DNA of 36,481 nucleotides, from NCBI RefSeq assembly GCF_903946935.1, contig NZ_CAJAXH010000106.1:1-36481 (forward strand), written 5' to 3'. Under the pieces are notes generated by a model. That model searched no databases. It saw nothing but the letters and a program-made list of their open reading frames with translations, and had not been told where the DNA came from. The stretch's first letter is position 1. Each line of letters starts with the position of its first letter. A program made the position numbers and the translations under genes. Origin of the DNA: an uncultured Thiodictyon sp. (lineage in GTDB: Bacteria; Pseudomonadota; Gammaproteobacteria; Chromatiales; Chromatiaceae). Shown in pieces: positions 8,109 to 18,371 of this stretch.

Positions 8109-8178
8109 GTGGGGGCGGCTTCCAGCCGCGTTGCGACGCCGCGGCGCCCGGCGTCGTCGCGGCTGAAGCCGCTCCCAC
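8109..8178. repeat. GGAGCGGCTTCAGCC-family hairpin
   Basis: GTGGGGGCGGCTTCCAGCCG (from 8109) faces CGGCTGAAGCCGCTCCCAC (to 8178), with a GC-rich centre. It is a diverged member of the family seen perfectly at 15883-15956. The rest of 8179-8438 holds no gene that I can support. Confidence 0.75.
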
Positions 8179-8438: not shown

Positions 8439-11400
8439 GTGGATACACAGATTTTGGCAGTCGGTCGTCGCGTGTTACACGCGCTGGCCTCGTTGGTGCC
8501 GCGGCGGGGCGCGGCTTCGGGGAAAAGGGATCTGCCCCCTTTTTCGCCCCCTTTTTCGATCGCTTTTCTGCCTTTTTCGCTGGCCTTATCCGTTCTGTGT
8601 ATATTCTATATTGGCGTCATGCCTAGCGCTGAAGCGGCTACTCAGCTACTGGATGGTTGGACGACCTCGCATACTCTGAGTGCGCATGGTGCGAACCCAA
8701 CGAGCGCCTCGCTATCCGTTGGCGATGGCACCACGACTGATATGGCGGGCGGATATCGAAACATCTATGTTGTCAAAGATAGTGGTAGCAATACTAGTAG
8801 TAATGTTACCAGTTCAGCCAGTCAAGGTTTTCTTACGCATAGTGAAGATGGAGCCGGACTTACTGCAGTTGGCGGATATTCGCTGATCACATGGGACGGA
8901 AATTCCGACGTTGCAGGCGTCGATCCATTCGGATTACGCAAAGGCGGCAGCACAGGCATTGACTTTGCCGGAGGATGCACCGGATCTGCCCAGCGATTTG
9001 CTTTTGGGTGGCAAAAGATTGGAGCTTATGACGCAACCGTCTTAATGACTGTTTATACTGGCTCAGGAGGGACTGCAGTTAGTTACTCAAAGAGCGCCGG
9101 TACAGGCGCATCCGGGACGATGATTTTTCCGTTTGCTTCCTTTGTCGGCGCGAACTTTAACGACGTCGGCGCAGTCACCCTGAAGATTACAACGGTTGGG
9201 TCTGCAGCGCCCTTCAATATTACCACCGCCATTACCTCCTGCTATCAAGATCATAGCGATGCACCCGACACTTATGGAACAACGCTAGGGGGCAGTGGTC
9301 CCTTCCATATTCCCTCTGCGAACCTGTATCTTGGCGCTGTGCAACCGGATGTTGAAAGCGACGGGCTACCTGGTGGGGATGCAACGGGAGATAATCTCGA
9401 TAACATAAACGACGAAGATGGTCTTGTGTCACTGACTGCAACAGGCTCCGGCGCCTCTTACACGATGACTGCGAATGTCAAGGTCAGTATTGCATCAGGC
9501 ACGGCAATGCTCTGCGGTTGGATCGATACCACTAACGAGACAGTTTTTTACGATGTTGGTTTAGGGGGAACAAAGAACGTCTGCGCCACCGTTGACTCGG
9601 CCAATGGGACGGTACAGACCATTGCGTTGTCGGGTTTCCAGGGGTTCGTGGTTGGCGCCAGCACTAAAACCTATGCCCGCTTCCGCGTCTGTACTAATGC
9701 GAATCATGAATGCGATACCCCTTATGGATTTGCCCCCGACGGCGAGGTGGAAGACTATGCGTTCACTTACAATACCAACACCACCAGCGCAGTCATAGGC
9801 AAGGTCGAAATCGATTCGCTGACATCCGATGCGGCCCTCAGCTCCTTGCTTGGCGCGGCCGATCCGACGGATGCGGCGGCCCTGTGGGCACTGCTTAATG
9901 GCCTGGATCCCGAACTGGCTGCGATGCTGAGGGATGCCGATGCCGCTACCCTGCAGGCCGCGTTGCTGCGGTTGCTCGACCCGAATCACGATGGCGTGGT
10001 GGCCCTGCTGCGCTGGGAGACGCTTGCTGAGAATGGCACCATCGGCTTTGATGTCGAGCGCCGTCAGCGAGATGGCGACTGGCAGCGTTTCAATGATCCA
10101 CTACTCCCCGGGTTGATCGTTGCCAGCGCGGGCGGCGACTATGCACTGCTCGATCCGGCTGCGGTGCCGGGTCAAACCCTGGAGTATCGGATCGTCGAGC
10201 AGGAGGCCGGGGGCAACCGCAACACCTATGGCCCCTACACCCTGACGATGGCGGCGGCGGGCGGCTCGGCAAGCGCTGCCAGCATCCGGGCCGCACTCGC
10301 GGCCAAGCGGGTTAGCGGCCGGCCCAACCAGGCGAGCGGGACGGCGCCCACCGAGTGGCATGGGCTCGGCCAGGGTTATATGGGCCATATCCGGGAGGCG
10401 AATGCGCCGCATGGGGCGTCGCGCCATGGGGCGCCGCGCCACGGGCGGCCAGCGCACACCTCGGCCCAGTCGACCCCGGCCAATTGGCTCTATACCGCTG
10501 GGACCGGCCTGTACCAACTCACCGCCACCGAGATCGCCGGCCTGACCGGCAATCCGGTGCGGCAGGTGCAGCAGATGCTCAAGACGGGAAATGCGTTCGC
10601 ATTGAGCCACGATGGCGCTCCGGCGCCCTGGTGTTATGACGCGGCGGCGGATGCGTTGCTCTTCAGCGCGCTGGATTTTCGTGACCTCTATTCGGACCAG
10701 GACGCCTTCCGGCTGTTTTCCGATCATCTGGAGGCGCGGACCATGGGTGTGAACAAGGCCGCTGCCCCGCGGGCTGGGGTGCCCGGGGAGGTCGCGACGG
10801 CCCGGGTTCATCTTGGGAAGGATGTGTATGCCAGGCCCGATCTCATCCGGGGTGACGTCAATGCCAATTATTGGTTCCAGGACTACCTCTACCCGAACCT
10901 GGCGAGCAAGGCGTCGCTCCAGCTCCCGCTCGTCCTGCCCGGGCTTGCGCCCGCCGCTGGTACCGCCAGCCTGGACATCCACTTGCACGGGATGACTGAC
11001 GTACTTCCTGGTAATGACCACAAGGTGACCGCCTCGCTGGGTGGTGCCGTGTTGGGTTCGGCGGAGTGGGACGGCTCGGCGCCGGCGACCCTGAGCGTCC
11101 AGTTGAGTTCGGCACAACTCGCCTTGGTGGCGTCCGGTACGCCATTGGTCCTCAAGTCGGCAAACCTGAACAGCATCCAATGGTATCAGTCGATCGACGC
11201 GACCTATCCACGGACCTTGCGGGCCGACTCGGGCCAACTACTGGTGCAGGGATTGACCGCTGGCCAGCATACCGTCAGCGGCTTTGCGGGCCCCGACATC
11301 CGGGTGGTGGAGGCTCCGGGTACGACTGCCGCCACCTGGTATGCCAATCGCACCATTGTGCAGGGGGCCGACGGCTGGCAGGTGAGCTTTAAGGCACCAC

Positions 11401-12545
11401 ACGCGGCCGACTTTCTGATTATCGATGGATCGACGATCAAGGCTCCCGCTGCCATCGTGGCGGAGGATGCAACAGCGCCCTTGCGCGATCCGAAGCGGCA
11501 GTCCGACTATCTGATCATCGCCCCCAAGGAATTGGGCCAGACCGCGGCGGCCTTGCAGACCTTGCGCGCGGGTCAGTTCAAGCGGGTCGATATCGCCTGG
11601 CTCCCGGATATCGAGCAGGAGTTCGGCAATGGGCGTCCAGGGATTGATGCGGTCGATGGGTTCCTCGAGTATGTCGCGACCAAGTGGCGGCGGGCACCCG
11701 ATACCGTGGTATTGCTCGGCCGTGGTACGACTGACCCGCGCGATCTGCTGGGCTTCGGTAACAGCCTGATCCCGGTGCCCATGGTGCTCACACCCTGGGG
11801 GCTGCTCCCCTCGGATTATCGCTATGCGGAGTCGGTCGGGGCTATCCGTTTTGCCCTTGGGCGAATTCCGGTGATCGACGAGACCGAGGGCCTGGCCTAT
11901 GTTGCTAAACTCCAGGCTGCCGAGGCGGTGTCCCTTGGTAGCGCGGCCAATACGGCGGTCGTGGTGGCCGACAATCCGGACAAGGGTGGCGATTTTCATC
12001 TGAATGCCGACCTGTTGACTACTGAGCTGCAGGGTGGCGGCTATACGGTACGGCGGTTCTACCGTTGCCTGGCGGGCGAGCTCCACCCGGCGTGCGCCAA
12101 TGTACGTGCCGCGTTGACGCAGAGCAGCACCTGGATGACACCACTGTTGAGCTATGAGGGGCATAGCTCGTTGACCCAGCTCGGCGGCAGCGGCGAGAAT
12201 TTCCTGCTGAACACCGATGTGGCGGGACTCAGTAACAGTGTCCAGCCGATATTCACGGCGATGACCTGTCTGGTCGGCGGTAACTTCTCGCCGCAGTATC
12301 GCTCCCTGGCCGAGACCTTGGTGTTGCGTCCCGGTGGCGGAGCCATTGCCGCACTGGCGCCCAGTGGCCAGTCGGTGGACGGAGACGCCAGCGTGCTTGG
12401 CCTGCGCTTTGCCGACTCACTGGTGGCCGGTGCCACACTGGGAGAGGCGACACGCGACGCGTTGAATGCCAGTCGCGGTCAGATCACGCCGTTCATCGGT
12501 CAGATCTATCAGGTGACCGGCGATCCTGCGGTGCGCTTGCCCTAG
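8439..12545 (+). CDS. Exported C25 (gingipain-like) cysteine protease with GEVEDY domain
   Basis: The 1368-residue product starts at a GTG preceded by AGGGGGGT. A long N-region leads to a hydrophobic stretch (FLPFSLALSVLCIFYIGV) and a likely signal cleavage after AEAA (near residue 67). Residues about 270-440 match the GEVEDY domain of surface proteins (DAPDTYGTTL at the start, PDGEVEDYAFTYN at the end). About 520-605 resemble an Fn3-like sheet (LLRWETLAENGTIGFDVERR). About 1020-1368 are a Peptidase_C25 caspase fold with His1242 (SYEGHSS) and Cys1277 (AMTCLVG), 35 apart, ending GDPAVRLP. No T9SS or PEP-CTERM sorting tail is present. GC content is clearly lower before about 9800 than after. 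It is followed by the peptide gene at 12720; its substrate is unknown. Confidence 0.88.
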   Translation: MDTQILAVGRRVLHALASLVPRRGAASGKRDLPPFSPPFSIAFLPFSLALSVLCIFYIGVMPSAEAATQLLDGWTTSHTLSAHGANPTSASLSVGDGTTTDMAGGYRNIYVVKDSGSNTSSNVTSSASQGFLTHSEDGAGLTAVGGYSLITWDGNSDVAGVDPFGLRKGGSTGIDFAGGCTGSAQRFAFGWQKIGAYDATVLMTVYTGSGGTAVSYSKSAGTGASGTMIFPFASFVGANFNDVGAVTLKITTVGSAAPFNITTAITSCYQDHSDAPDTYGTTLGGSGPFHIPSANLYLGAVQPDVESDGLPGGDATGDNLDNINDEDGLVSLTATGSGASYTMTANVKVSIASGTAMLCGWIDTTNETVFYDVGLGGTKNVCATVDSANGTVQTIALSGFQGFVVGASTKTYARFRVCTNANHECDTPYGFAPDGEVEDYAFTYNTNTTSAVIGKVEIDSLTSDAALSSLLGAADPTDAAALWALLNGLDPELAAMLRDADAATLQAALLRLLDPNHDGVVALLRWETLAENGTIGFDVERRQRDGDWQRFNDPLLPGLIVASAGGDYALLDPAAVPGQTLEYRIVEQEAGGNRNTYGPYTLTMAAAGGSASAASIRAALAAKRVSGRPNQASGTAPTEWHGLGQGYMGHIREANAPHGASRHGAPRHGRPAHTSAQSTPANWLYTAGTGLYQLTATEIAGLTGNPVRQVQQMLKTGNAFALSHDGAPAPWCYDAAADALLFSALDFRDLYSDQDAFRLFSDHLEARTMGVNKAAAPRAGVPGEVATARVHLGKDVYARPDLIRGDVNANYWFQDYLYPNLASKASLQLPLVLPGLAPAAGTASLDIHLHGMTDVLPGNDHKVTASLGGAVLGSAEWDGSAPATLSVQLSSAQLALVASGTPLVLKSANLNSIQWYQSIDATYPRTLRADSGQLLVQGLTAGQHTVSGFAGPDIRVVEAPGTTAATWYANRTIVQGADGWQVSFKAPHAADFLIIDGSTIKAPAAIVAEDATAPLRDPKRQSDYLIIAPKELGQTAAALQTLRAGQFKRVDIAWLPDIEQEFGNGRPGIDAVDGFLEYVATKWRRAPDTVVLLGRGTTDPRDLLGFGNSLIPVPMVLTPWGLLPSDYRYAESVGAIRFALGRIPVIDETEGLAYVAKLQAAEAVSLGSAANTAVVVADNPDKGGDFHLNADLLTTELQGGGYTVRRFYRCLAGELHPACANVRAALTQSSTWMTPLLSYEGHSSLTQLGGSGENFLLNTDVAGLSNSVQPIFTAMTCLVGGNFSPQYRSLAETLVLRPGGGAIAALAPSGQSVDGDASVLGLRFADSLVAGATLGEATRDALNASRGQITPFIGQIYQVTGDPAVRLP

Positions 12546-12719: not shown

Positions 12720-12899
12720 ATGAACGAAATTCCCGGCAATGCGGTTACCGCCAATACCCCCAAGAAGCGCTACGAGTCGCCGCAATTTTTGAGTATGGAG
12801 CCTCTGGAGGCCTTTGCGACGGGGTGTGCGGACAGTAACGAGCAGAGCGGACCGGGTAAGACCAGTTGGCTGGCTTGTCTGACTCCCTTGGGCTCCTGA
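12720..12899 (+). CDS. Candidate RiPP precursor peptide (59 aa)
   Basis: This small gene encodes 59 residues. The N-terminal part has KKRYESPQFLSMEPLEAFAT (15-34), in which Tyr18-x-x-Pro21-x-Phe23 matches the YxxPx(L/F) leader motif read by PqqD-type recognition domains in lasso peptide systems. Then comes a Gly/Ser-rich core with Cys36 and Cys53 that ends CLTPLGS, so the last residue is Ser. TAGGT precedes the ATG weakly. Its neighbours are an HprK-like kinase, a PqqD-like protein and a radical SAM enzyme, the kind of company precursor peptides keep. The leader/core border is not obvious; after Ala33-Thr34 or Gly35 is a guess. It could instead be a short unmodified peptide. Confidence 0.7.
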   Translation: MNEIPGNAVTANTPKKRYESPQFLSMEPLEAFATGCADSNEQSGPGKTSWLACLTPLGS

Positions 12900-13060
12900 C
12901 CGTGTCGATCCCAGCGCAATTCGGTGGCGACGAATCCTCGAGCGGTGCCCGGGCGCCGGCGATAGGCAGTGCTGGGGATCGGGCCATTAGTGCCTCGACC
13001 AAGCTGGCGGGGCTACAGTGCCCGTGGGGAGCGGATCGTCGCGTCGTGGCGTTTCAGACG

Positions 13061-13903
13061 ATGCGCTTTCAATTCACCGGGCTCGATGCCCGGCAGGTCG
13101 AGGTCGTCGACCGGCGCTTCGGGCGTTTTGTCGTCCCGGATGAAGATACCCGCAGAGACATTGAATGCCAGTGCTGGCGCGGCGTACCCGAGGTGGTGCC
13201 GCTCGCCTTGCTGGCCAACCGCAATGACGAATATCAGCCGCGGGTAGAGTACAGCGCGGACGCCTTGGTGGTGCGCGGATATAACTTTACGGCCAGTCTG
13301 GACCTGGCGGTTAGCCAAGCGCATGCGCACCTATGTACGGCCGGGCAGAATCAGCTTCCGGAAACGGATGTCTTCGACAACTATCTGCGTCTGGCCGCCG
13401 CCTACGTGGCCCTGGCGCGCGGCGGTCTGTTACTGCATAGCGCGGGGGTAGTGATCGACGGCCGCGCCTGGCTCGCGCTCGGACGCTCGAGTGCCGGCAA
13501 GAGTACCTTTGCCCGGGCAGCCTTGGCGGCCGGGCTCCCGATACTCAGCGACGACATCAATATCGTCCTGCCCGCGGCCGGCGGCGGCTTCGCGGCCGGT
13601 CCGGTTCCGCTGACCGGCGACCTGCGCGACCAGTGCCCTCAAGACCCGCACGCCAGCTATCCGGTCGGCGGTCTGCTGTGGCTGCATCAAGGCGCGGCGC
13701 CGGCGGTATCGCCCATGGCCGACGGCGAGCGGGTGGCGCGGGTGTTGGCGTGCGCGCTGGCGGTGAACGCCGATCCCTATCGAGTGGAGGCGGCGCTCGG
13801 TGTCATCGATGACCTGCTCGGGCAATTGCCCATGCGGGTGCTGAGTTTCCGCCGGGACGAGGGCTTTGAGGCCCTGATCCCCCTTATTGAAGAGATTGTG
13901 TAA
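13061..13903 (+). CDS. HprK-related (HPr kinase/phosphorylase-like) kinase
   Basis: From the ATG at 13061 the product has 280 residues, starting MRFQFTGLDARQVEVVDRRF. A Walker A loop GRSSAGKST lies at 141-149, preceded by LLLHSAGVVIDGRAWLAL and followed by LPILSDDINIV, the layout of HprK-like kinase domains found beside RiPP genes. In paeninodin-type lasso loci such kinases phosphorylate the C-terminal Ser of the precursor. The frame is open upstream, and GTG at 12902, three bases after the peptide gene's stop, would add 53 residues without family character; neither start has a good ribosome site. The stop overlaps the next ATG by one base (TAATG), so it is coupled to the PqqD-like gene. Confidence 0.85.
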   Translation: MRFQFTGLDARQVEVVDRRFGRFVVPDEDTRRDIECQCWRGVPEVVPLALLANRNDEYQPRVEYSADALVVRGYNFTASLDLAVSQAHAHLCTAGQNQLPETDVFDNYLRLAAAYVALARGGLLLHSAGVVIDGRAWLALGRSSAGKSTFARAALAAGLPILSDDINIVLPAAGGGFAAGPVPLTGDLRDQCPQDPHASYPVGGLLWLHQGAAPAVSPMADGERVARVLACALAVNADPYRVEAALGVIDDLLGQLPMRVLSFRRDEGFEALIPLIEEIV

Positions 13904-14178
13904 TGTCAGAAGAGACCAATCCAGACACGCTGGCGCTGCACCCCGATCTGGTGTTCCGGGCGGCCGGAGATGAGGGGGTCGCCGTGGATCAGCGCAAGTC
14001 AGAGATCCTGGTGGTCAACGGGCTCGGCCTGCGGGTGATGCAACTGGTGCGGGCGCATGGCTCGCGGCAGGCCGTGCTCACGGCGCTGCTGGCTGAATAT
14101 GAAGCACCGGCCGAGCGCATCGCCGCCGATCTGGATGCCTTTCTGGACGAGATGCGCCAGCGCGATCTGCTCTGCTGA
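13903..14178 (+). CDS. PqqD-family peptide-binding protein
   Basis: The 91-residue product fits the PqqD fold: LHPDLVFRAAGDEGVAVDQRKSE..., then ILVVNGLGLRVMQLV, then a C-terminal helical half that ends DLDAFLDEMRQRDLLC. PqqD-like RiPP recognition elements bind leader peptides and hand them to modifying enzymes, here most likely the radical SAM protein two positions on. The start overlaps the kinase stop by one base. A palindromic element follows 17 bases after the stop, separating it from the radical SAM gene by 230 bases. Confidence 0.88.
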   Translation: MSEETNPDTLALHPDLVFRAAGDEGVAVDQRKSEILVVNGLGLRVMQLVRAHGSRQAVLTALLAEYEAPAERIAADLDAFLDEMRQRDLLC

Positions 14179-14195
14179 GTGCCGTAGCCAGTCGC

Positions 14196-14319
14196 GGCCT
14201 CGATCAAGATTCCGGCCACTTGGGTTCGCCCGGTGCGTAGTCAGGCCATCTTGGCCTGACAGCGTCAGGGCTGGAAGCCCTGACTACGCACGCCGCTGGC
14301 CGGGATTATGATCCAGGCC
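14196..14319. repeat. Nested palindromic element, copy B (124 bp)
   Basis: Same structure and length as 3309-3432. I see two differences: CACCGTC versus CAGCGTC at the centre and ATCGAGGCC versus ATCCAGGCC in the last arm. It sits inside the RiPP-like gene series, between the PqqD-like and radical SAM genes. The remaining bases to 14408 hold a short GGCCCCTTGGCC hairpin. Confidence 0.9.
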
Positions 14320-14408
14320 GCGACGAACCTTCGCCAAGGATGGTTCCGCGGTAGCGGCCCCTTGGCCGCGACCAATGCCAGACTACCGATCGATGGCTGA
14401 GTGTCGCT

Positions 14409-15458
14409 ATGTACCATACAGTAATCCAGGAGCGTATCCGCCGCCTGCACCTGCTGCACAGCGTGATGCTGGAGCTGACCTATCGCTGCAATCTCAATTG
14501 CTTCTATTGCTATAACGACCCGGAAGCGGCCGGCACGCCGCTGTCGGTCGATCAGTATTTGCGCCTGTTCGACGACCTGGAGTCCATGCAGGTCTTGTTC
14601 CTCTCCTTCACCGGCGGCGAGCCGCTGGCCCACCCGCAGTTTTTCGAGTTGGCCGGTGCGGCGCGTCGCCGCGGTTTTGCGATCCGGGTCAAGTCTAACG
14701 GCCATGCCATTCGCGGTGAGGTGGCGCGGCGTCTGCGCGACGAGGTGAATCCCATGGCGGTGGAGATGAGCCTGCATGGGGCGACCGCGTCGGTCCATGA
14801 TCGGCAGACCCGGGTGCCGGGGAGCTTCGAGCGGTTGCTGGAAAACCTGACGCAGATGCAGCAACTCGGTCTGCGTCCGTCATTCGTCAGCACCCTGACT
14901 GCCTGGAACGCCCCTGAGATCGAGGCGATGTATGCCCTGGCCGACCGGTTCGGGGTACGTCTGCGTTGGCAAGGTCCGGTCAGCCCGCGTCAGAATGGCG
15001 ACCGCGAGCCGCTGACGATCCAGCCATCGGCCGTGGACTGGGAGCGGGTCCGGGCGATCGCTGAGGGCCGCCGGGCATCGGCCGCTGTACCCGCGGCGAA
15101 CCCGCTGGAGGGGGCGACCAAGCCTCCCGCCACGGATGAGGATCGGCCGCACTGTGGCATCGGCACCCAGGAGGTGCTGGTGGACCCCTTTGGCAATGTC
15201 TATCCCTGCGTACAGGTGCGCTGGTCGGCGGGCAATCTGCATCGGCAACCGATCCGGGCGATCTGGGAGCAGGCCACGGCCTTCGGCGACGCGCGCCGGT
15301 TGTCGGTGGCGACGGCCAAGCGCTTCGCGGGCCAGCGGCCCACCCAATTCGGCGCACCCATCTTCTGCCCGGGGGTCGAGCTCACCTATTTAGGCGAGCG
15401 GGGCCAACGAACCGACATCCCGCTCAATGATTGGCGCAAGTCGTCGCCTCTTCGATGA
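14409..15458 (+). CDS. Radical SAM enzyme with Twitch/SPASM-type C-terminus
   Basis: The 349-residue enzyme has the [4Fe-4S]-SAM motif C27-x3-C31-x2-C34 in LTYRCNLNCFYCYND, and FTGGEPLAHPQF as the SAM-binding GGE motif. The C-terminal region has C249-x12-G-x4-C267 (CGIGTQEVLVDPFGNVYPC), the exact spacing of a SPASM/Twitch auxiliary cluster, followed by GNLHRQPIRAIW and one more Cys, C320 (IFCPGVEL). So one auxiliary cluster is likely rather than two. Such enzymes install C-C or thioether links or epimerise residues in peptides. The ATG at 14409 lacks a clear ribosome site. Its stop overlaps the next gene (ATGA). The likely substrate is the 59-residue peptide (inference from context). Confidence 0.9.
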   Translation: MYHTVIQERIRRLHLLHSVMLELTYRCNLNCFYCYNDPEAAGTPLSVDQYLRLFDDLESMQVLFLSFTGGEPLAHPQFFELAGAARRRGFAIRVKSNGHAIRGEVARRLRDEVNPMAVEMSLHGATASVHDRQTRVPGSFERLLENLTQMQQLGLRPSFVSTLTAWNAPEIEAMYALADRFGVRLRWQGPVSPRQNGDREPLTIQPSAVDWERVRAIAEGRRASAAVPAANPLEGATKPPATDEDRPHCGIGTQEVLVDPFGNVYPCVQVRWSAGNLHRQPIRAIWEQATAFGDARRLSVATAKRFAGQRPTQFGAPIFCPGVELTYLGERGQRTDIPLNDWRKSSPLR

Positions 15459-15943
15459 TGCATTCCCGATTGGAGGTCCTGCGCGATCTGGCAGGCGACC
15501 ATGCGCTGCCCCTGAGGGTCCGCGGTACCTGCATGGCCCCCTTGGTACGCGATGGTGCGCTGGTGGTGCTGGCAGGGCCGAAAAGGGTCTATTGGCCCGG
15601 CGATGTGGTGGTCCGCGGGGGTACGCCTGGGTTGCTGATCCATCGCGTGATCGGTGTCTACTGGCGCGCCGGTCGCCTCCACTATCTCACCCAAGGCGAT
15701 GCGGCAGCGCATCCGGACGCTGCCGTGACTGCGTGCCAGATCCTGGGGCCGGTGCGGGGCGGCGATTGCTCGGGCCAGTTGGTCCGGGTGCCGTTGCGGC
15801 ATCGGTGCTGGGCCTTATGGCGATTTGGGCGCTTCATGGCGGCGCGTCTCGGCCGGGAGCGGCCTTGGCCGCGATGGGGGCGGGTGGGAGCGGCTTCAGC
15901 CGCGACGAGGCCATGGCAGTCGGTTGGGTGGGGTCGCGGCTGA
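15455..15943 (+). CDS. S24/S26-like peptidase-fold protein with Cys for Ser
   Basis: The start ATG (15455) overlaps the radical SAM stop as ATGA. VRGTCMAPLVRDGALVVL fits the signal-peptidase box GxSMxP, but the nucleophile position is Cys26. PGDVVV and LIHRVIGV supply a His63 like the His of ER/SipW-type signal peptidases, and TQGDAAAHPD supplies Asp82/Asp88. There is no clear membrane anchor. It may be a leader peptidase or an inactive fold. The last 20 residues (GAASAATRPW...) are read from the hairpin repeat at 15883-15956, whose right arm contains the stop TGA at 15941. The original C-terminus is therefore probably lost or replaced. 162 residues. Confidence 0.78.
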   Translation: MMHSRLEVLRDLAGDHALPLRVRGTCMAPLVRDGALVVLAGPKRVYWPGDVVVRGGTPGLLIHRVIGVYWRAGRLHYLTQGDAAAHPDAAVTACQILGPVRGGDCSGQLVRVPLRHRCWALWRFGRFMAARLGRERPWPRWGRVGAASAATRPWQSVGWGRG

Positions 15944-15956
15944 AGCCGCTCCCACC
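15883..15956. repeat. GGAGCGGCTTCAGCC-family hairpin (24-bp perfect arms)
   Basis: Arms 15883-15906 and 15933-15956 are exact reverse complements (GGTGGGAGCGGCTTCAGCCG plus CGAC). The repeat lies within the end of the S26-like gene and supplies its stop codon. Confidence 0.9.
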
Positions 15957-16043
15957 GGGGCCCGGCGCGACTTTCACGCTCAAGCCTCCAACGATGACCA
16001 AGGCCGCGGGGTACGTGAGATGGATGATGGAAGGGGCGGGGTG

Positions 16044-17153
16044 ATGGAGCAAGCCGACTGGCTGGCGGCCGTGCTGCGCGGCGAGTGCATTGACTGGCCG
16101 TTCGGTTGGGGACCGCGCGATTGCGAGTCCGTGCTCCTGGCGGCCCAGGCGCAGGGCGTGAGCGGGATGCTCCTGCCCCGGCTTGACCGCTACGCCGATC
16201 CCGCGAGTCTCCCGGCGGCGTTGCGTCCGGCCCTACGGCGGCGCGTCAGGGGCGAGGCCGCCGCCGAGTTCTCCCGGCAGATCGAATGTGAACGGGTCCT
16301 GGGTCTGTTGGCGGGGGCCGGTCTGAGCGCGCTGCTCATGAAGGGCACCGCGCTGGCGTATTCGCTCTATCCGGAGCCACATTGGCGCAGTCGCTGTGAT
16401 ACGGATTTGCTGTTTGCGGATCGCGACGCCGCGTCTCTGGCCCTGGAGGTCTTCGCGCGCGATGGCTATCGCCCGATCCCGGCCCTCGGCGGCACGGTGC
16501 TCAATCACGAAGTTTGCTGTTTTAAGCAGGACCGCTTTGGTGTGACCCATTCCATGGACCTGCATTGGGCCGCCAACAACCTCCCGGTGTTTGCCGACCT
16601 GCTGCCCTTTGCCGAACTGGCGGCCGCGGCCGCTCTACTCCCGCGCCTGGGGCCCCATGCGTTGGGCGTGGCGCCGGTGCATGGGCTGTTGCTGGCCTGC
16701 ATGCACCGTCTCCAGCATGCCCCCGAGGGCCAGAGCAACCGTCTGATTTGGCTCTATGACATCCATCTGCTCACGGCGGGCTTTAGTGCGGCGGATTGGT
16801 CGGCGTTCAGTCGCCTGGCCATGACGCGTGGTGTCAGCGGGGTCTGTCTGGCTGGCTTGATGGCCGCGCGGCGGGTCTTCCGCAGTACCCTGCCCCCGGG
16901 AATCCTGGAGGCGTTGACGCAGGCGGCGGCCGCCGAGTGGCTGACACCCGCGCGCTTTGCCACCCTGCGCGGTCAATTGATCGCAAATCTGTTGGCGCTC
17001 GATGATTGGGGCAGCCGCCGGCGCCTGGTGCGGGAGCATCTGTTTCCAGATGCCGCCTATCTGACACAGACCTATGGGGCGCGCCAGGGCTGGCGTTTAC
17101 CCTTGCTCTATCTGCGCTGGATCGGCAGCAAGATCGGCAAGGCCCTGCGCTGA
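16044..17153 (+). CDS. Nucleotidyltransferase-family protein (PF14907 type)
   Basis: The 369-residue product resembles the uncharacterised nucleotidyltransferases that accompany HprK-like kinases and PqqD proteins in RiPP loci. LLMKGTALAYSLYPEPHWRS (98-116) precedes the metal-binding pair D119-x-D121 (RCDTDLLFADRD). A helical C-terminal half contains HRLQHAPEGQSNRLIWLYDI. The ATG has a good ribosome site (GGAAGGGG). The longer open frame back to 15825 is repeat-derived. It is the last gene of the series, 100 bases after the S26-like stop, the gap being filled by repeat. Its acceptor is not known; transfer of a nucleotide to the peptide or a protein is possible. Confidence 0.83.
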   Translation: MEQADWLAAVLRGECIDWPFGWGPRDCESVLLAAQAQGVSGMLLPRLDRYADPASLPAALRPALRRRVRGEAAAEFSRQIECERVLGLLAGAGLSALLMKGTALAYSLYPEPHWRSRCDTDLLFADRDAASLALEVFARDGYRPIPALGGTVLNHEVCCFKQDRFGVTHSMDLHWAANNLPVFADLLPFAELAAAAALLPRLGPHALGVAPVHGLLLACMHRLQHAPEGQSNRLIWLYDIHLLTAGFSAADWSAFSRLAMTRGVSGVCLAGLMAARRVFRSTLPPGILEALTQAAAAEWLTPARFATLRGQLIANLLALDDWGSRRRLVREHLFPDAAYLTQTYGARQGWRLPLLYLRWIGSKIGKALR

Positions 17154-17552: not shown

Positions 17553-18371
17553 CTATCTTTGTCGGCGGCCGGGTCTTTTTCGGGGGGCGGCGGGCGCCGG
17601 CATCGGGTCGACGCAGAAATAGCCGCCGCCCGGGATGGGGCGCCCGTTCAGGTCGCGTGCCCGGGGGTGGTAGCCGGTGGCGCGCTCGAAGCGGTCCTTG
17701 CGGCAAACCGCATCGCCTTTGGCCTTAAGGTCCTTGGGGACTGAGCCGAAGGCGGCCGGATTGTCCCAGACGCGACCGTCCTTGCCAAGGATGATGCGGG
17801 GTGGGATCGGGCCGGGCTTGCGGTCCTCCGCATGGCCGACGCAGAAAAAGCCGCCGCCCGGGATGGGGTCCCCGTAGTAGTCGATTGCCCGGGGGTGATA
17901 GCCGGTGGCGCGCAGGAAGTCGCCCTCGAGGCAAATCTGTTTGCCGGTTTCTTTGAGTTCTTTCGGGATCGCGCCGAAGGCGGCCGGATGATCCCAGGTG
18001 CGCCCGGCATCCGTGTCGATGATGCGCGGTGGGATCGCGGCGGGTTTGCGCCGGTCCTCCTTTTCCTGATCGACCTGGCCGGCGCAATAAAATCCGCCGC
18101 CGGGGATGTGATTGTCGTCGTAGTCGCGTGCATCCGGATGGTAGCCGCTGGCGTGATCGTAGTCGGTGCCGCGGCACGCGGCATCGCCCCGTTCCTTGAG
18201 CTCGTCCGGGACGCTGCCGAAGGACCCCGGGTGCTTCCAGTGGCGGCCGTCTTTGCCGTCGGCGATGCGTGGGGGTGGGTCGCGCGGCTTCTCGCCGGGA
18301 CCGCTCACGCAACTCGCGAGCAGTGGGGCGAGGCAGGCAAGGACGACCGCCGTCTTTTTGGCTTTCAGCAT
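17553..18371 (-). CDS. Lipoprotein with three tandem 67-residue Cys-pair modules
   Basis: I do not recognise the family. The 272-residue product has a lipoprotein signal ending LLAS-Cys21; Val at +2 fits the outer membrane. Three modules follow at about 33-99, 114-180 and 190-256. Each starts PPRI, then has W.(H/N)P..FG.(V/I)P.(E/D)LK..G, then (A/S)(T/S)GYHP.A.D......IPGGG(F/Y). Each has Cys at module positions 34 and 64 (AAC/QIC/AVC and FYC/FFC/YFC), suggesting one disulfide per module. Linkers are charged and Pro-rich, and the tail is basic (RKRPGRRQR). No motif names an enzyme; a cell-envelope binding role is a guess. It lies alone, downstream of tRNA-Ala on the same strand but beyond a terminator. 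Confidence 0.85.
   Translation of the reverse strand: MLKAKKTAVVLACLAPLLASCVSGPGEKPRDPPPRIADGKDGRHWKHPGSFGSVPDELKERGDAACRGTDYDHASGYHPDARDYDDNHIPGGGFYCAGQVDQEKEDRRKPAAIPPRIIDTDAGRTWDHPAAFGAIPKELKETGKQICLEGDFLRATGYHPRAIDYYGDPIPGGGFFCVGHAEDRKPGPIPPRIILGKDGRVWDNPAAFGSVPKDLKAKGDAVCRKDRFERATGYHPRARDLNGRPIPGGGYFCVDPMPAPAAPRKRPGRRQR

Follow-up and report, generated by a model that had tools for sequence, protein, structure and literature searches.

What is made from a 59-residue peptide that is encoded beside a kinase, a leader-binding protein and a radical S-adenosylmethionine (SAM) enzyme, and what does a C25 peptidase gene do next to it? The question is raised by a 36,481-nucleotide stretch of DNA from an uncultured Thiodictyon sp. 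(contig NZ_CAJAXH010000106.1; hereafter the window). An earlier note on this DNA described six consecutive + strand genes as a candidate locus for a ribosomally synthesized and post-translationally modified peptide (RiPP) of a non-lasso kind. All six are present in that order at the places given, and a RiPP-type, non-lasso locus is still the best reading. A further gene at 8439–12545, upstream of the six and overlooked in the earlier note, encodes a C25 peptidase and is a strongly linked member of the set. The locus architecture, its motifs and its folds are conserved, and the peptide is very probably a RiPP precursor modified by the radical SAM enzyme. Judging from the sequences, we lean modestly towards a previously undescribed RiPP family, in which a Cys-bracketed loop with one basic residue works with its own C25 protease. 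The features of the locus are as follows.

8439..12545, + strand: C25 peptidase (gingipain/PorU family) protein, 1368 aa (PF01364, PF20009, His/Cys dyad, PDB profile matches)
12720..12899, + strand: precursor peptide, 59 aa (open reading frame (ORF), conserved motifs)
12819..12896, + strand: predicted core, residues 34–59, if the leader is cut after A33 (position of E/M-x-x-A)
12902..13903, + strand: HprK-like P-loop kinase (ORF, motifs, His-Lys-Asp-Asp, fold); GTG start proposed, longest ORF from 12866
13903..14178, + strand: predicted PqqD-like leader-binding protein (RiPP recognition element) (PF05402)
14409..15458, + strand: CxxxCxxC radical SAM enzyme whose auxiliary part is short and SPASM/Twitch-like (Pfam, invariant Cys)
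15455..15943, + strand: S26 signal-peptidase-like protein, catalytic Ser replaced by Cys, GTCMAP (profile, model); ATG start proposed, longest ORF from 15431
16044..17153, + strand: NTP_transf_5 (PF14907) protein, accessory

A conserved precursor with a Cys-bracketed loop

The window peptide carries Y18-x-x-P21, E30-x-x-A33, C36, K47, C53 and, as its last residue, S59. Related loci were annotated on 69 stretches with profiles built from the first relatives; one stretch (L122) duplicates another (L038), leaving 68 different loci, and a precursor is recognised in 52 of them. The contig scan for relatives kept the best 80 of at least 435, and many of the loci are related to each other, so that the counts below are not independent. 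The precursor set started from 49 rows found by motif, lost an off-frame row (L165:13718) and the duplicate, and gained seven rows by peptide profile or motif and one more (L191), giving 55 copies, 52 of them distinct. Six divergent rows (L040, L056, L102, L190, L200, L201) are retained in all precursor counts. Since the selection required [YW]xxP and, loosely, the acidic/A pattern, the recurrence of YxxP and partly that of E-x-x-A are circular. The C-terminal Ser, the second Cys and the Lys/Arg were not selected for, but the profile was built from Ser-ending members.

At least two Cys residues follow the leader in all 52 distinct precursors, and the last residue is Ser in 50 and Thr in two; in the same loci, Ser ends 537 of 4425 ORFs of 38–90 aa (12%) and, among ORFs of 250 aa or longer, 77 of 1009. 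A Lys or Arg lies between the first and last Cys in 49 precursors, exactly one in 46. When loop and tail were shuffled 2000 times, the corresponding count averaged 31.9 and reached at most 41 of 52. The last Lys/Arg stands 5–8 residues ahead of the last Cys in 44 of the 49; in L192 and one of the L199 copies it is Arg, against Lys in their neighbours. E/M-x-x-A is present in 49 of the 52 leaders; in 46 of the 52 its Ala precedes the first Cys by three residues. Two positions ahead of this Ala, 48 of the 49 have a small or aliphatic residue, which is the pattern that signal peptidases prefer. The loop varies in length: many short-core members (e.g. L197, L188, L031) have the spacing Cys-x-Lys/Arg-x5-Cys, and most long-core members, including the window peptide, have a larger Cys loop.

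Over 45 codons, five ungapped close pairs differ by 3:0, 5:5, 6:0, 19:4 and 4:0 synonymous to amino-acid-changing codons, the synonymous differences being at least as many in each; a sixth pair (4:34) is unusable because an indel shifts it. Judged by these differences, the precursor is under purifying selection in the close pairs. The peptide is not a chance ORF, given its recurrence in 52 loci and these codon differences. The earlier note had made its reading depend on conservation of the peptide beside these genes, and the same recurrence provides it. Scanning 38 of the precursors yielded no NCBIfam family match and a single weak Pfam match (DUF5972, E 0.041).

Probable leader binding and radical SAM modification

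Of the 52 peptide loci, 48 carry a PqqD-like gene on the stretch and 51 have one for a radical SAM enzyme. A short precursor with a conserved leader and a variable core, next to genes for a leader-binding protein and a modifying enzyme, fits the general picture of a RiPP locus. In the window, the PqqD-like protein matches PF05402 with 47.7 bits (cut-off 23.4), and the radical SAM enzyme matches PF04055 with 72.9 bits and, partially, SPASM PF13186 with 30.5 bits (cut-off 21.5). Pfam bears out the domain calls made earlier for these two proteins and for the PF14907 protein. The auxiliary Cys residues C249, C267 and C320 of the radical SAM enzyme are invariant in 10 of 10 sequences. Its scores are below the cut-offs of the 25 NCBIfam models listed, such as the sactipeptide maturase StsB (103.1 against 625 bits), and the best of these sub-threshold matches is the mycofactocin maturase. 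PqqD-like proteins bind leaders, and peptides are modified, often by crosslinking, by radical SAM enzymes that carry auxiliary clusters.

The kinase and the C-terminal Ser

The window kinase has no Pfam match and falls far under the NCBIfam cut-offs. It retains an intact P-loop and intact His and Asp-Asp motifs, and its structural model (mean predicted local distance difference test (pLDDT) score 86.9) matches phosphoenolpyruvate carboxykinase and HPr kinase/phosphatase structures with moderate template modelling (TM) scores. The HprK-like assignment of the earlier note stands on these motifs and the predicted fold. Across the family, with rows aligned per site out of 51, the catalytic tetrad is His in 48/48, Lys in 48/48, Asp in 49/49 and Asp in 48/49, the sole exception being Glu in L039. 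In paeninodin-type kinases, which phosphorylate the precursor at its C-terminal Ser, the His-Lys-Asp-Asp motif is reported to be essential (PMC9266682). Since the tetrad of these lasso-precursor kinases is retained here, we consider it likely, by analogy, that the kinase phosphorylates S59.

Fourteen peptide loci have no kinase on the fetched stretch and their precursors still end in Ser/Thr, which could count against phosphorylation. A family kinase is found elsewhere in all 14 genomes, in five of them (G545, G630, G773, G829, G836) on the same contig just past the stretch; in a fifteenth genome checked (G765), the kinase lies inside the stretch. As a control, 15 genomes of the same phylum without a radical SAM match, picked in list order without phylogenetic matching, were searched at 1e-6, and three hold a family kinase. 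The strongest of the three (G529) contains a related locus, a row of C25, PqqD-like, radical SAM, precursor, kinase and S26-like genes; its radical SAM enzyme is a more distant one, and its precursor is of a GCK type and ends in Ser.

A C25 peptidase gene linked to the peptide gene

The window C25 protein has a hydrophobic N-terminal stretch, a GEVED domain and a C25 domain at its C-terminus, and it matches PF01364 with 141.2 bits (cut-off 23) and PF20009 with 25.7 bits (cut-off 24.4). The His/Cys dyad is present in all 50 C25 rows aligned there, with seven further rows gapped. The family profile matches PorU (3e-29), gingipain R and Lys-gingipain in the PDB; the window C25 domain alone gave no PDB match at 0.01. 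Gingipains cleave on the C-terminal side of Lys or Arg.

Of the 55 peptide genes, 40 have a C25 gene no more than 300 bp away, in 38 cases on the same strand. In the same scan, none of 69 loci of more distant radical SAM enzymes has a C25 gene; the median control locus is 13,995 bases long, some being just 3–4 kb, and L056 and L102 were removed from them since they hold the peptide and C25. Genome-wide, C25 is also found in five of eight system genomes without a local copy. Presence of C25 in a genome is by itself weak evidence, and adjacency is strong evidence. Two loci (L037 and L167) contain a tandem C25–peptide–C25–peptide array with a single maturation set each, which points to a separate C25 for each peptide. 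From the adjacency, this co-duplication and the single conserved Lys/Arg, we consider it somewhat favoured that the product acts on the neighbouring C25 protease or is acted on by it.

The S26-like protein and the nucleotidyltransferase

By profile and model, the S26-like protein matches SEC11 (profile E 5.5e-6), LexA and SpsB, and the best fold match of its model (pLDDT 78.8) is SEC11C (E 1e-3); Pfam S24 is under its cut-off. The SEC11 matches and the model fold bear out the S26-like call made earlier, with one correction: Cys replaces the catalytic Ser. At this position of the GxSMxP box, Cys is found in 21 of 27 homologues, from both groups, and Ser in four (L039, L042, L056, L102); the box was not found in two. 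The seven sequences first aligned all retain the His and Asp boxes. This protein may act as a leader peptidase, a role suggested by its sequence that we hold with some doubt.

The nucleotidyltransferase matches PF14907 with 107 bits (cut-off 31.2). Its presence in the window agrees with the earlier note, which had counted it in the set; as a core member it is rejected, since it occurs in 7 of 56 loci by clustering (six by direct BLAST, window included), and we regard it as optional.

Comparison with known systems

The closest parallels are the paeninodin and pseudomycoidin lasso loci (PadeK, ThcoK, PsmK; PsmN), with which the locus shares the YxxP leader, the PqqD-like protein, the His-Lys-Asp-Asp kinase, the C-terminal Ser and, in the window, the NTP_transf_5 protein. 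In contrast to those loci, it has a radical SAM enzyme, a two-Cys core, and S26-like and C25 proteins. The earlier note had called the lasso cyclase and transglutaminase-like protease absent, and no such Pfam family was found among 17 window proteins scanned, a set smaller than that of all ORFs, and lasso membership is rejected on this basis.

The SynChlorMet cassette supplies the best NCBIfam match of the kinase (ScmC), and kinase, PqqD-like, radical SAM and S26-like genes occur together, as they do in the Chlorobiaceae loci L058 and L075. Membership is rejected by the scores, which are 45.5 against a cut-off of 125 bits for ScmC, 68.1 against 400 for ScmE and 75.2 against 400 for ScmF. L058 has a Cys-rich candidate precursor with Thr as its last residue, and neither L058 nor L075 has a C25 gene. 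The HPr-rel-A system (HprK_rel_A) likewise pairs an HprK-related kinase with a PqqD-like protein, and the earlier note had raised it as a possible home. The window kinase scores 20.0 bits against a TIGR04352 cut-off of 200, and membership is rejected on this cut-off; nine of nine family kinases match HprK_rel_A weakly (best E 1.6e-6).

Gingipains and PorU share the C25 domain with its His/Cys dyad, which is linked here to a RiPP-type gene set. The reactive loops of Bowman-Birk and sunflower trypsin inhibitors have the spacing Cys-x-Lys/Arg-x5-Cys. Many short-core members share it, with unrelated sequences; on the other hand, C25 is a cysteine protease and most long-core loops are larger. Among the papers listed in the literature searched, which lacked most subscription titles, we found no description of this locus or of the C25 link, and none of the papers searched mentions HPr-rel-A, SynChlorMet or an HprK-related kinase. 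The parts are known; the gene combination and its link to C25 were not found described there.

Distribution and related arrangements

Close relatives of the radical SAM enzyme occur in 11 of the 138 genomes searched from the same family (E ≤ 1e-45) and, at class level, in 6 of 369 (1e-60), the genome of the window being included in both. The kinase gave no match at 1e-6 in seven searched genomes of the same genus, and the distribution of the locus is therefore patchy. The system is not rare: of 396 genomes sampled from the phylum to which L037 belongs, 63 have a radical SAM match (1e-55), and the peptide was found in 29 of 40 stretches taken from this search. The 52 precursor-bearing loci are mostly from Gammaproteobacteria and Acidobacteriota: L037 is labelled Thermoanaerobaculia, L039–L041 and L043 Acidobacteria, and L038 Gammaproteobacteria, its contig being also G464 of the class search. 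Viral contigs scanned with the kinase gave five pattern matches and no relative.

Three arrangements depart from that of the window. In G062, C25, peptide and kinase are on one contig and the PqqD-like and radical SAM genes on another (L015, L034), which is a natural split of the system. Eight loci (L174, L175, L177, L178, L180–L183) have radical SAM and PqqD-like genes and no recognisable precursor; on these stretches, a kinase is present in seven and a C25 gene in six, and the loci may hide another precursor type. A third precursor type, with a GCK block and a Gly-Ser end, adjoins C25, kinase, PqqD-like and radical SAM genes in L102 (91–7765), in a second system of L166 (14079–16994) and in L249 (G529:C162, 7131–14739), where a Ser-type S26-like gene is also adjacent. 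Only L102 among these is counted in the 52. Since GCK-type precursors lie beside the same genes, the architecture is wider than the counted family.

Proposed pathway and competing explanations

In the pathway we propose, the PqqD-like protein would bind the leader and the radical SAM enzyme would modify the Cys/Lys core, most likely by a crosslink that closes the loop. The kinase would phosphorylate the C-terminal Ser, as paeninodin-type kinases do, and the S26-like Cys protein would cut off the leader after the E-x-x-A alanine (A33 in the window). In this genome, the NTP_transf_5 protein may add a sugar to the phosphate, as proposed for PsmN, which is reported to add a hexose to the phosphate (PMC9266682). 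The product would then work with the adjacent C25 protease, either as its dedicated substrate or as a substrate-mimic inhibitor. We infer the order of these steps, the closed loop, the cleavage after A33 and the action with C25. A bolder version, which we hold to be less likely than not, is that a radical-SAM-modified and C-terminally phosphorylated loop, with a P1-like Lys/Arg between two Cys residues, serves as a dedicated inhibitor or substrate of the adjacent gingipain-family protease, and that, where present, a Cys-type S26-like fold turned cysteine protease removes the leader.

Several observations weigh against this pathway. The main weakness of the C25 partnership is that no recurring exporter was found and that the two partners appear to be in different compartments. 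An N-terminal hydrophobic stretch is present in 35 of 49 long C25 proteins and in none of the 52 precursors, tested from just before YxxP; no exporter stood out when neighbouring ORFs were clustered, a 5-locus ATPase cluster being of the generic ATP-binding cassette type. Fifteen of the 55 peptide genes have no C25 gene within 300 bp: four of these are no further than 350 bp from a contig end, another four have C25 at a distance of 1.4–5.8 kb, and seven have none on the stretch. In genome-wide searches for C25, G519 (the genome of L200) gave no match, G773 and G511 gave none at 1e-6, and 4 of the 15 control genomes did contain C25. At the S1 region, the C25 profile aligns ambiguously with gingipain R, so that Lys/Arg specificity is putative. 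Three of the 52 precursors (the other L199 copy, L200 and L201) have a loop without Lys/Arg.

Further points concern the remaining steps. No precursor was recognised in 16 of the 68 loci, in some of them through contig ends. Another Ser/Thr is available in 49 of the 52 cores (three have none), and BsfK, a related lasso-system kinase, phosphorylates Ser3 and not the last residue (PMC10368454). The S26-like gene is present in just 23 of the 52 peptide loci. In genomes without a local copy, an S26-like match lies elsewhere in 10 of 14; the box is readable in nine of these and has Ser in all nine, which means that leader removal there needs another enzyme or a Ser form. An S26-like match is also found in 5 of the 15 control genomes.

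The strongest competing explanation is that C25 is a mere maturation protease of an ordinary secreted RiPP, an antimicrobial or a signal, which it cuts at the Lys/Arg or in the leader, the target being another cell. Proteases are commonly encoded with RiPPs, and a single conserved basic residue fits a cleavage site for an enzyme that cuts after Lys or Arg as gingipains do. However, each peptide copy in the two tandem loci has its own C25, whereas one shared protease would suffice; the missing recurring exporter also speaks against a secreted product, and most of the C25 proteins are long (about 800–2350 aa) with varied extra domains. We regard this explanation as unlikely.

A role for C25 as the client, in which the modified peptide is attached to C25, or folds or activates it in the manner of a cofactor or prosthetic group, seems improbable. 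The pairing and co-duplication of C25 and peptide would suit it, and radical SAM/PqqD systems make cofactors such as pyrroloquinoline quinone and mycofactocin, whose maturase is the best sub-threshold match of the window enzyme. Yet, to our knowledge, C25 enzymes of the gingipain/PorU kind work without a peptide cofactor, and many genomes carry C25 genes without the system; one control genome (G522) has 17 C25 matches and neither a radical SAM match nor the kinase.

Two explanations have very little probability. A degenerate or diverged phosphorylated lasso locus, with a radical SAM gene in place of the cyclase, would account for the features shared with the paeninodin and pseudomycoidin loci (YxxP leader, PqqD-like protein, kinase tetrad, C-terminal Ser, NTP_transf_5), but not for the lack of both lasso enzymes among the 17 proteins scanned or for a two-Cys core with one basic residue that is conserved across loci. 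That the small ORF is no substrate and the enzymes act on something else, such as part of the C25 protein, could be read from the eight precursor-less loci, but the precursor recurs in 52 loci, its invariant features are kept and close pairs bear the mark of purifying selection, and the ends of the C25 proteins, checked for a fused peptide in six of those eight loci, have no peptide-like segment.

Gene boundaries and flanking sequence

The kinase and PqqD-like genes overlap stop/start by 1 nt at 13903, as the earlier note had reported for two of the genes. The S26-like gene probably starts at ATG 15455, and the resulting 4-nt overlap with the radical SAM stop would be a second such junction. 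From the reading frame, the kinase probably starts at GTG 12902, 2 nt past the peptide stop, because an in-frame PWG block common to homologues precedes the later possible starts.

Between the PqqD-like and radical SAM genes, a 230-bp gap contains two nested inverted repeats with 28-nt arms (14191–14324); the same genes nearly abut in L014, L016 and L017. A 37-nt palindrome (86% complementary, 26-nt gap) at 15870–15969 lies in the S26-like ORF at its 3' end, where it encodes the protein tail VGAASAATRPW. It looks like a repeated extragenic palindrome that changed the S26-like C-terminus. Short palindrome-like matches at 8112 and 17168 are within what shuffles can yield. On the − strand, 17553–18371 is a lipoprotein-like ORF of 272 aa in which a PIPGGG-F-C unit is repeated about three times; Pfam gave no match to it at 1e-5.

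Implications

If the proposed pathway is correct, this RiPP family would join radical SAM chemistry to C-terminal Ser phosphorylation, a modification described for lasso peptides (PMC9266682, PMC10368454). The S26-fold protein with Cys for Ser is a second testable oddity. RiPPs would be tied to C25 proteases in Gammaproteobacteria and Acidobacteriota, where no role of C25 was found in the literature searched, and a peptide–protease pair would be spread across at least two phyla.

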